From: Methanoculleus sp.
GTDB lineage: Archaea > Halobacteriota > Methanomicrobia > Methanomicrobiales > Methanoculleaceae
Length of the DNA stretch: 34,812 nucleotides
Direction of reading: 5' to 3'
Assembly: GCA_030156625.1 (NCBI GenBank)
Contig: JASGMC010000012.1
Location: forward strand, 1 to 34,812
Shown: in pieces, positions 11,406-13,652 of the stretch
How positions within the stretch are numbered: position 1 is the first letter of the stretch
Layout of the letters: the number at the start of each line of letters is the position of its first letter
Position numbers and translations under genes: made by a program
Notes under the pieces: model-generated
Databases searched by the model: none
Told to the model about the DNA's origin: nothing
Seen by the model: the letters and a program-made list of their open reading frames with translations, nothing else

Positions 11406-11525
11406 AGTACCTATGCGTCCTCCTCCCATAAGGGCTCATGATACCGGGGTGCGGTGATCCGGGATGGACCTGATGGCGGAGGCGATGCCCCGGCTGCTCG
11501 CGAACGTTGATCCCGGGTGGAGGGT

Positions 11526-12500
11526 ATGACCGATCCCCAGATCGCATTCATCCAGGCGCTCCAGACACAGGCCGCGTGGCTCGCGGTCCCGATGCAGTTC
11601 TTCTCGTTCCTCGGGCAGCCGGAATTCTACCTGCTCGTCATCCCGATCCTTTACTGGTGCTGGAATCCGCGCCTCGGCCTCCGTCTCGGGCTCCTCATGG
11701 GGATATCGGGCGGGCTCAACGAGGCCCTCAAAGTCGCGTTCCACTTCCCCCGTCCCTACTGGGTCAGCCCGGAGGTCAGGGCGCTCGGGAATTACCCGTC
11801 GTTCGGGCTGCCGTCGGCGCACGCCCAGGGGTCGGTGGCGCTCTGGGGGCTGCTCGCCGTCGACGCCCGGCGCGGGTGGTTCTGGGCATTCGCGGCCGTG
11901 ATGGCCTTCCTCATCGGCGCGTCGAGGGTCGTTCTCGGGGTCCACTTTCCGACCGACGTCGTCGCGGGCTGGGCGGTCGGCGTCGCCGTCCTTCTCGGGT
12001 TCCTCGCTCTCGAGAAGCCGGTGGGCCGCCGGGTCGCCGCCCTCCCGCTCTCCCGGCAGGTGCTTGTCGCGTTCGCAGGTTCCCTCGTCCTGGCTCTGGC
12101 CTCCTTTGCCGCCCTCGTGGCACTCGGGGACTGGCAGGTCCCCGCGTCCTGGGCGGCGGGGGCGCTCGAGCGGTCGGGGGAGCCCATCCATCCGCTCTTC
12201 CTCCGGGACGCCGTCACGGCATCGGGGCTCTTCTTCGGGTTCGCGGCCGGTGCGGCGGCAGAGCATCACCGTGGCAGCATGTGCGCCGTCGAGAAGGGGT
12301 CCGTCCGCCTGCTCCGCTATATCTTCGGAATCGCCGTGACCGGGGCGATCTGGTTCGGGCTCGGGCTCCTCGTCCCGTCCGACCCCGCCTCGGCCGCATA
12401 CGTCCTCCAGTATCTCCGGGCAGCCGTTGCCGGTGCCTGGGTCTCGTTCGGCGCTCCGGCGGTCTTTGCCCGCGCAAACACGCTCCGGGGCGGAGCGTAG
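11526..12500 (+). CDS. PAP2-superfamily membrane phosphatase
   Basis: A 324-residue polytopic membrane protein. The three PAP2 motifs are intact: KVAFHFPRP (Lys69 to Arg75-Pro76), PSAH (96-99) and SRVVLGVHFPTD (Arg134, His140, Asp144). These residues form the vanadate-type phosphatase centre, so it should dephosphorylate a lipid phosphate or isoprenoid diphosphate at the membrane. The family has both roles and sequence alone does not separate them. The C-terminal half adds about five hydrophobic segments beyond the basic PAP2 unit. GGAGGGT lies just before ATG 11526, and an in-frame GTG at 11517 is the alternative start. Confidence 0.88.
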   Translation: MTDPQIAFIQALQTQAAWLAVPMQFFSFLGQPEFYLLVIPILYWCWNPRLGLRLGLLMGISGGLNEALKVAFHFPRPYWVSPEVRALGNYPSFGLPSAHAQGSVALWGLLAVDARRGWFWAFAAVMAFLIGASRVVLGVHFPTDVVAGWAVGVAVLLGFLALEKPVGRRVAALPLSRQVLVAFAGSLVLALASFAALVALGDWQVPASWAAGALERSGEPIHPLFLRDAVTASGLFFGFAAGAAAEHHRGSMCAVEKGSVRLLRYIFGIAVTGAIWFGLGLLVPSDPASAAYVLQYLRAAVAGAWVSFGAPAVFARANTLRGGA

Positions 12501-12514
12501 GGGTATATATCCCC
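12500..12514 (+). promoter_or_regulatory. TATA box of the archaellin-like gene, flanked by GGGG/CCCC
   Basis: GGGG, TATATAT (12504-12510) and CCCC run consecutively. The ATG at 12533 lies 23-29 bases downstream of the TATA tract, the usual distance to an archaeal transcription start. The message is therefore probably leaderless and independent of the PAP2 gene that ends at 12500. Confidence 0.6.
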
Positions 12515-12532
12515 GGCAGGCGAGGATCCTGT

Positions 12533-13144
12533 ATGGATTCGGCGGGCGGCGGTCTCACGGTGCTCGAGTGGGCGATCCTCGGCGTCGTGACGGTCCTGCT
12601 TGCCGTGCTTGCGGTCCACGCCCTGGCCGTTCCCCACGGCCCTCCGGCAGGCCTCGTCTACTCGGCCCTCGAGGAGACCGGGGATTGCCTGGTCGTCTCC
12701 GGCGACGTCTACGGCTACGCGCTTGCGTGCGGGAGTGTCGACGGCGTCGATCTGTGGTGCGACCTGCCCGATCCTTCAAGAATGGGGTCGGTTTCCTGCA
12801 GCGTCCGCCTCTTCGTCGGCGATATGGGGAGCGTTGATATGGGCCGCGCCACGGTCGAGATCGCCGCCCGGGACGGGACCGAACGCCTCGCGAGGACTGC
12901 GGAGGCACCGGTGCGGCCCGGGAACTGGACGATCGTCCGGACGGGGCACACCATTCCTTTCCTGCAGGCGGACGACGACACCCTCCTCGAACCCGGGGAA
13001 CGGTTCGACCTGCTCGTCTACCCCTCCCGGCCGCTTGCGCCCGGCGAGACGTTCCGCGTCTGCATCACCCCGCCCGGCGGCGTCCCGCTCACGGTCGAAC
13101 GGACCGTGCCGCCCCGGATCACGCCGGTGATGGATCTCGGGTGA
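12533..13144 (+). CDS. Orphan archaellin-like / type IV pilin-like protein
   Basis: 203 residues. The N-terminus reads MDSAGGG then LTVLEWAILGVV and a hydrophobic helix. Cleavage after Gly7 would place Glu at +5, as in archaellins processed by the class III signal (prepilin-like) peptidase, but the leader lacks the usual positive charge. The rest also follows archaellins: 'LVYSALEETGDCLVVSGDVY' after the helix, 'DDDTLLEPGERFDLLV' late in the protein, and the ending LTVERTVPPRITPVMDL. It carries five cysteines, unusual for an archaellin. No other arl/fla gene (ArlI, ArlJ, peptidase) is nearby. It could be a minor or specialised filament subunit. The upstream open frame overlapping PAP2 is a shadow. 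Confidence 0.72.
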   Translation: MDSAGGGLTVLEWAILGVVTVLLAVLAVHALAVPHGPPAGLVYSALEETGDCLVVSGDVYGYALACGSVDGVDLWCDLPDPSRMGSVSCSVRLFVGDMGSVDMGRATVEIAARDGTERLARTAEAPVRPGNWTIVRTGHTIPFLQADDDTLLEPGERFDLLVYPSRPLAPGETFRVCITPPGGVPLTVERTVPPRITPVMDLG

Positions 13145-13193: not shown

Positions 13194-13652
13194 ATGCTTG
13201 CAGAGGGGATCGCTCTCGGCTGGGTGCTGATCGTGCTCGGGGCGGTGCTGCTCCTGGTGGAGGTTTACGAGCCCGGGTTCTTCATCGCCGTCCCCGCGAC
13301 GGTCCTGATCATCCTCGGCGTCCTCCTCCTCCTCGGCGTCGATATCCTCAGTTCCCCCCTCGCCCTCATTGTCGGGGTTCTCGCCGCAATCGGAGCGGCC
13401 GCGGTTACTGTCTGGTTTTACGGCCGCCTCACGCCGGGGAGAGGCCCCCCGACGACCCTCTCCCGGGACTCGCTCGTCGGCCTCGAGGGGACGGTGGTCG
13501 CTCCGGTCGATGCGGATACGCTCGTGGGAAAGGTGCGGCTCGGGAGCACGGAATGGAGCGCCCGTTCCGAGTCCGGGAGCATCCCGGTCGGGAGAAAGAT
13601 TATCGTCGTACGCTCCGAAGGGGTGCACGTCGTCGTGAAGGAGGTTACATAA
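13194..13652 (+). CDS. NfeD-family membrane protein
   Basis: 152 residues: two or three hydrophobic segments near 5-75 (GWVLIVLGAVLLLVEVYEPG, then a valine/leucine-rich helix pair) followed by an OB-fold-like C-terminal domain (about 95-152) starting 'SLVGLEGTVVAPVDADTLVGKVRLG', the hallmark of short NfeD proteins. NfeD proteins are the obligate neighbours of SPFH/stomatin proteins and are thought to help organise them in membrane microdomains. The SPFH gene starts one base after this stop codon. The start was chosen from the TATA box position and the first hydrophobic segment. Confidence 0.88.
   Translation: MLAEGIALGWVLIVLGAVLLLVEVYEPGFFIAVPATVLIILGVLLLLGVDILSSPLALIVGVLAAIGAAAVTVWFYGRLTPGRGPPTTLSRDSLVGLEGTVVAPVDADTLVGKVRLGSTEWSARSESGSIPVGRKIIVVRSEGVHVVVKEVT

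Follow-up and report, generated by a model that had tools for sequence, protein, structure and literature searches.

The archaellum filament is generally described as an archaellin shaft with the base proteins ArlF and ArlG, and to our knowledge little has been established on what starts or caps such filaments. The textbook archaellin leader ends in Lys/Arg-Gly. Minor pilins of the Epd type are presumably laid out like the archaellin relative analyzed in this work, i.e., with a class III leader, one helix, and a small outer domain. Such minor pilins of archaeal type IV pili are EpdA-C of M. maripaludis (PMC3875500, PMC10133366), and a low-copy role is proposed here for the family of this protein as well; its head, however, is of the archaellin type, no pilus operon lies beside the gene, and only PF01917 is matched in Pfam. 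Stand-alone archaellins are already known: passages of PMC4858521 describe archaellin genes as prone to duplication and often solitary, and the FlaB genes of M. hungatei are placed away from the fla cluster in the relevant part of PMC4704411. The family may already have an arCOG number. In the literature searched, neither a description of an order-wide clade devoid of the shaft helix nor a tip-cap, initiator, or DNA-uptake role for an archaellin relative was found, and PMC11641113 had no bearing on the clade.

The window, i.e., the whole stretch of DNA analyzed (34,812 nucleotides), comes from a genome of Methanoculleus sp. (G000). With about even confidence, we propose that the archaellin relative encoded in it is a low-copy, processed, pilin-like surface subunit of the tip, base, or decorating kind, and not a part of the shaft.

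Gene, promoter and protein layout

The gene occupies positions 12533-13144 of the plus strand (ATG at 12533, TGA ending at 13144) and encodes a stand-alone archaellin relative of 203 aa. Its reading frame and coordinates, given previously in a first-pass annotation together with archaellin-type motifs, were all confirmed in the sequence; the motifs are VSGDVYG (residues 55-61), LLEPGE (151-156), and ERTVPPRITPVMDL (189-202). A 545-codon frame (11507-13144), shared with the archaellin relative, runs without a stop through the upstream PAP2 gene; it is probably a product of the high G+C content, and calling the start by the longest ORF would be wrong at this place.

A TATA box of its own had also been claimed for the gene, and the claim is borne out by a TATATAT element at 12504-12510 (plus strand), 29 nt upstream of the ATG. 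This 7-mer occurs four times in the window, both strands counted, where 0.27 occurrences are expected (four were reached in 1 of 100 shuffles), and a TATA element 28-30 nt before the start was present in 19 of the 19 Methanoculleus copies examined, including broken and cut ones, and absent from both sister-genus copies (0/2). The spacing to the ATG suggests the leaderless type of transcript, and a sigma-70 promoter scan found none, as expected for an archaeon. Since the downstream NfeD gene has its own TATA-like stretch before it, the archaellin-relative gene is probably transcribed alone.

The protein consists of the leader MDSAGGG, the stretch LTVLEWAILGVVTVLLAVLAVHALAV, the linker motif PHGPPAG, and a head of about 160 residues with the end ERTVPPRITPVMDLG. 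The predicted class III-type leader (12533-12553, plus strand) would be cut after Gly7 (MDSAGGG↓LTVLE). It was previously called uncharged, and indeed it holds neither Lys nor Arg, but one Asp is present, so that it is better described as without positive charge. The leader is free of Lys/Arg in the five Methanoculleus rows, while the sister genus (G037) has MKLDKNERG↓LTVLE. Gly7 is invariant in the 18 copies of Methanoculleus and the sister genus. Among the 27 order-wide rows of the family, in which the cleavage site was located by a pattern itself requiring Gly or Ala at -1, Thr is found at +2 in 26; position +5 is Glu in 21 rows and Ser, Asp, or Gly in the other six. As sequence context, this is the expected class III signal, with a putative cut before x-T-x-x-E. 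The archaellin leaders of the same genome (L072 3027-4180, L073 9662-10222) end with Ala preceded by acidic residues (NEDA↓F, NDNA↓F, DEEA↓F), and not with the Lys/Arg-Gly of the textbook form.

The leader is followed on the plus strand by a predicted hydrophobic N-terminal helix (residues 8-32, LTVLEWAIL..., with Glu at +5; 12554-12628), delimited by prediction and by the helix comparison described below and modeled by AlphaFold as a helix over residues 10-32 (block pLDDT 77-85), by a Pro/Gly-rich linker (residues 33-42; 12629-12658), the length of which varies across the family in the alignments, and by a head (residues 43-203; 12659-13141), which is assigned as an archaellin-like beta-sandwich from hhalign and from Foldseek and VIA matches of a low-confidence model.

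Five cysteines occur in the window protein, at positions 52, 66, 76, 89, and 177. Cys52 (codon 12686-12688, plus strand) and Cys89 (12797-12799, plus strand) co-occur, in 16/16 Methanoculleus copies and 0/2 of the sister genus; Cys76 is kept in 15 of the 16 intact Methanoculleus copies and in both sister-genus ones, and Cys66 and Cys177 were found in 2 and 4, respectively, of these 18. As Cys52 and Cys89 are present or absent together, they would fit one intramolecular bond in Methanoculleus at most. The earlier idea of a disulfide-linked filament component is weakened by these counts, as only Cys52, Cys76, and Cys89 are kept in the genus and the fullest Cys column of the order-wide alignment has 9 of 27 rows; covalently linked filaments were set aside in view of this poor conservation across the family.

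Archaellin homology and distribution of the family

The window protein matched Pfam PF01917 at E 2e-4 (22 bits, below the cut-off of 29.5), and a phmmer search of PDB gave the A. pernix flagellin 7txi (E 5e-5); an NCBIfam scan gave nothing up to E 10. Compared by hhalign, the family profile (27 order-wide members) aligned with 13 archaellins over 184 columns (99.8%, E 2.2e-29), whereas the values were 1.3% against ArlF and 1.7% against ArlG, for which the alignments were small, with 4 and 3 rows. PF01917 was matched at E<=0.01 by 20 of the 27 members and was the sole Pfam family found at this threshold among them; none of the Pfam pilin models matched. The archaellin match noticed in the first-pass annotation is therefore real and holds at the profile level, and the relationship, the non-standard role, and the promoter that it had put forward are all supported.

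Two AlphaFold models were examined, a full-length one (pLDDT 53, pTM 0.48) and a head-only one (pLDDT 57), both of low confidence, as only 7 close sequences were eligible for them. In the Foldseek search with the full-length model, the 19 best rows were all archaellin, ArlG, or ArlF (E 1.5e-5 to 3e-3), and VIA gave Z values of 9.9 to 7.8 for rows of these proteins, the first unrelated row standing at 7.6; adaptin appendage rows (Z about 7) reflect a common sandwich arrangement only. The head-only model also had archaellins first among its matches, with a best E of only 3.5e-3. The ranking of the matches would suit the archaellin beta-sandwich anticipated for the head, but the confidence of the models was low and the Z gap to the unrelated row narrow. 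The homology rests on the sequence profiles, to which the structure models lend weak support.

In comparison with known systems, the family shares with archaellins (ArlA/ArlB, PF01917) the profile match, the C-terminal ending, Thr at +2, mostly Glu at +5, and perhaps, according to the low-confidence models, the head fold. It differs from them in lacking the shaft helix sequence and its near-invariance, in its Pro/Gly linker, and in forming its own clade, and the window protein remains below the PF01917 cut-off. The stator proteins ArlF and ArlG may have a similar beta-sandwich, as judged from weak structure matches; they show no profile relation to the family, fall into a separate clade, and, in the window's genome, do not have the G/A↓xTxxE start. 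Membership in either was set aside on the profile comparison and the tree separation.

In a careful tree (58 rows, 205 columns), the branch between 26 members and 32 archaellins had 100/100 support and recurred in 100% of the bootstrap trees, and the subclades followed families largely, but not wholly. This tree comprised 58 of the 81 rows of a quick tree, with ArlF, ArlG, and 16 further near-duplicate rows left out. In the quick tree, which included ArlF and ArlG, 31 members formed one set (support 100) lying among archaellins, its stem being 1.44 changes per column long. The trees did not include L113, the broken copies L029/L084, L032, L034, or the short archaellin L062. Because support for the branching point is weak (83) and a long-branch warning applies where ArlF and ArlG join, derivation of the family from an archaellin is only likely, and a placement as sister to archaellins is an alternative not firmly separated from it.

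Intact copies were found in 16 of the 35 Methanoculleus genomes and frame-broken or contig-cut ones in three (G008, G010, G017); some of the genomes without an intact copy are incomplete assemblies. Both genomes of the sister genus (g3) hold a copy, and with a profile of the 18 Methanoculleus and sister-genus copies each of the six family-level groups of the order was strongly matched. When 392 genomes of the phylum were searched, with scoring limited to 8 candidates in each, members reached at least 107 bits and all fell within the order, archaellins reached at most 97 bits, and no match outside the order rose above the archaellin background (the best had 70.5 bits among the matches listed). 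Apparently, the family is an old, vertically inherited side branch of archaellins, and no order other than its own has yielded members so far. A tandem duplicate of the gene was observed in one f5 genus (L108 6271-7621), and a third f5 paralogue, located elsewhere (L113 6722-7291), has no recognizable class III motif.

Helix constraint and selection

Among the archaellins of the order (43 rows, 903 pairs), the first 25 mature residues have a mean identity of 0.88 and the head one of 0.31, whereas in the family clade (30 rows, 435 pairs; L099 left out) the corresponding values are 0.31 for the helix and 0.40 for the head. For pairs with a head identity of 0.25-0.35, helix identity is 0.60-1.00 among the archaellins (394 pairs) and 0.08-0.42 in the clade (192 pairs). 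The near-invariant hydrophobic core helix of shaft archaellins is therefore not found in the family (0.31 vs 0.88). As judged from these comparisons and from the kept Thr at +2 and Glu at +5, the constraint of shaft packing is lost in the family and that of processing retained; and because the helix varies as much as the head, while the archaellin helix is near-invariant, the family protein is unlikely to be a shaft subunit.

These data bear directly on the possibility of an ordinary archaellin copolymerizing in the shaft, like the strongly diverged archaellins in Halorubrum. Archaellin homology agrees with it, and passages of earlier reports record stand-alone archaellins (PMC4858521) and two-archaellin filaments (PMC7349177). 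Nevertheless, the free divergence of the helix at equal head identity, the length-variable linker, and the presence of mere remnants of the gene in two archaellated species (see below) render it very improbable, and a low-copy subunit outside the shaft is preferred.

The dN/dS values (Nei-Gojobori) for the 16 Methanoculleus copies had medians of 0.43 for the whole gene (119/120 pairs), 0.36 for the head (120/120 pairs), and 0.75 for the helix (106/120 pairs; IQR 0.52-1.14). The head is under purifying selection. That the ORF is decaying or non-coding and has no function, as could be read from the remnants or frame breaks in G004, G019, G008, and G010 and from the restriction of intact copies to fewer than half of the Methanoculleus genomes (some others being incomplete), is hardly credible in the face of the overall and head dN/dS, the retention of the gene across the order, and the conserved position of the TATA element.

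Archaellum co-occurrence, genomic neighbors and possible roles

In a survey of 150 genomes of the order, the gene was found in 71, a few of them with broken or partial copies (G008, G010, G038); G054, with a match within its arl locus, and G125, with a fragment, were left out of this count. ArlJ (E<=1e-20; the query was identified as ArlJ/FlaJ by NCBIfam, E 7e-229) was present in 68 of the 71 gene-positive genomes vs 42 of the 79 gene-negative ones, with a Fisher p of 7e-10 that overstates the association because ancestry is shared: one genus (g20) supplies at least 11 of the 37 double negatives. PF04659 was discarded as an archaellum marker because it is too weak in this order (65/150 genomes), and ArlJ was used instead.

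Three genomes, i.e., G000, G143 (76% complete), and G062, were gene-positive and ArlJ-negative. In G062 (98% complete, 20 contigs), the gene is kept and open over 236 codons, and neither ArlJ nor any other PF01917 match was found. Also, no arl genes occur there (L149, C3) within 16 kb of the gene that in G072 flanks the arl and chemotaxis genes; at that place, G072 (L150, C2) keeps them, with CheA and a receiver domain recognized by Pfam. G062 thus appears to have lost motility, the place in question lying on a continuous contig. As this genome keeps the gene without arl genes, the gene can persist for at least some time after the archaellum has gone. The gene is missing from 42 of the 110 ArlJ-positive genomes, and in two Methanoculleus genomes, G004 (L145) and G019 (L144), which have ArlJ and archaellins, only short remnants of it lie between PAP2 and NfeD, a pattern read as in-place erosion. 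On this evidence, archaella can do without the gene.

It follows from G062 and the free helix that a solitary membrane-anchored envelope protein has to be considered, which would carry an archaellin head and never enter a filament, with a layout like ArlF/ArlG or a small S-layer-associated protein. The weakly constrained helix (dN/dS 0.75), the variable Pro/Gly linker, and the f5 paralogue devoid of a recognizable class III motif speak for such a protein as well; the conserved x-T (26/27) and Glu at +5 (21/27), needless for a plain anchor, and the co-occurrence with ArlJ speak against it, and we regard it as possible but doubtful. The retained processing features and the tie to ArlJ favor the low-copy filament subunit, against which G062, the remnants in G004 and G019, the 42 ArlJ-positive genomes without the gene, the differing neighbors described below, and the six of 27 rows without Glu at +5 have to be set. 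The two readings are close.

The genome of the window (82% complete, 130 contigs) has six PF01917 matches, one of them being the window gene. Its arl genes, i.e., arlB1, arlB2, arlCE, arlF, and arlG (the last named by place and look, as Pfam assigned no family), are on another contig, C38, and run into the contig end. In 20 genomes that have the gene and arlJ on one contig, the two are at least 442 kb apart, and the orphan position far from archaellum genes, pointed out in the first-pass annotation, therefore holds. Contig C28 carries a second archaellin pair, likewise separate from the arl genes (L073 9061-10222, minus strand; 186 and about 210 aa); it has a normal shaft helix and relatives in most Methanoculleus genomes searched. 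Because of this pair and the other stand-alone archaellins reported, a stand-alone position is ordinary for archaellins.

The immediate neighbors, both on the plus strand, are a PAP2-superfamily membrane phosphatase (11517-12500; PF01569, E 8e-22) and an NfeD-like protein (13194-13652; PF01957). The order PAP2-gene-NfeD-SPFH is kept in 6/6 Methanoculleus loci (L007-L012), whereas no neighbor from the window, save an unrelated ABC stretch, was found at the 20 loci examined in other families, of which two are short contigs; conservation beside PAP2 and NfeD, as looked for in relatives, is thus confined to the genus loci. A common operon function with PAP2, NfeD, and SPFH was set aside, since these neighbors are kept only in f1 and the genes have their own TATA boxes. 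Elsewhere, the neighbors are a PAS protein in two f6 loci, a thermosome-like gene (named by eye) on the opposite strand in three f4 loci, and, in f2, a PLD-family protein directly upstream in 4/8 loci and a one-helix protein directly downstream in 4/8 loci (L095 2671-3048, L106 7613-7987, L107 6626-7015, L114 7389-7766). The latter shows a weak OB-fold match (19.3 bits vs the Pfam cut-off of 27, E 0.001; none for the L095 copy) and no convincing match in NCBIfam or PDB searches, and its layout recalls that of an M. maripaludis OB-fold protein needed for transformation (described in part of PMC10133366). A role fixed by neighbors in these families was also set aside, as the neighbors differ between families.

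An archaeal-type prepilin peptidase is encoded in G000; the one detected lies on contig C44, together with a PilB3-like secretion ATPase and two platform genes. The archaellin relative could accordingly be a minor pilin of this second type IV-like pilus, acting in adhesion or DNA uptake. In its favor, G062 retains the ATPases and the peptidase, three g8 genomes have such an ATPase gene at a distance of about 11-12 kb from the archaellin relative, and the f2 gene adjoins the one-helix or the PLD-family protein. In the g8 genomes (G057 C1, G062 C1, G072 C3/L174) the ATPase gene is on the same strand, and in G072 unrelated, housekeeping-like genes lie between it and the archaellin relative. For transformation in Methanoculleus thermophilus, a TctA-like transporter is reported to be essential along with a type IV-like pilus (PMC10133366), which is suggestive only. 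However, the two g20 genomes examined (G074 and G084) keep such ATPases and a peptidase without the gene, no pilus gene adjoins the gene in f1, and the f2 OB-fold match is below the Pfam cut-off, the putative likeness to the M. maripaludis protein being one of layout; this explanation appears improbable.

The preferred low-copy subunit builds on the homology, the separate clade, the conservation of the signal site, the loss of helix constraint, and the selection on the head; the minor subunit or adhesin suggested at first is compatible with it. Processing, location, copy number, and job of the protein would then be as follows. The precursor would be inserted in the membrane and its 7-residue leader cut after Gly7 by the prepilin peptidase. 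The hydrophobic helix would stay in the membrane or enter a type IV-like filament once, and not thousands of times; this filament would most often be the archaellum, with Thr at +2 and Glu at +5 helping the entry. The archaellin-type head would be displayed outside on the flexible Pro/Gly linker, and the protein would work in adhesion or assembly as a subunit of low copy number that sits at the tip or base or decorates the filament. More speculative, and unlikely, is the proposal of a dedicated archaellin-derived subunit present once per filament, which would cap the tip or initiate assembly, or else of a pilin that the second pilus re-uses in DNA uptake.

For annotators, it should be stressed that family members score close to or below the Pfam cut-off for archaellins, while a place in the shaft is improbable for them. 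In-frame deletion has been carried out in M. thermophilus (PMC10133366), and the role would be testable in that species if it holds the gene. With the peptidase site and the head kept and the shaft helix dropped, the clade suggests itself as a candidate filament starter or cap.
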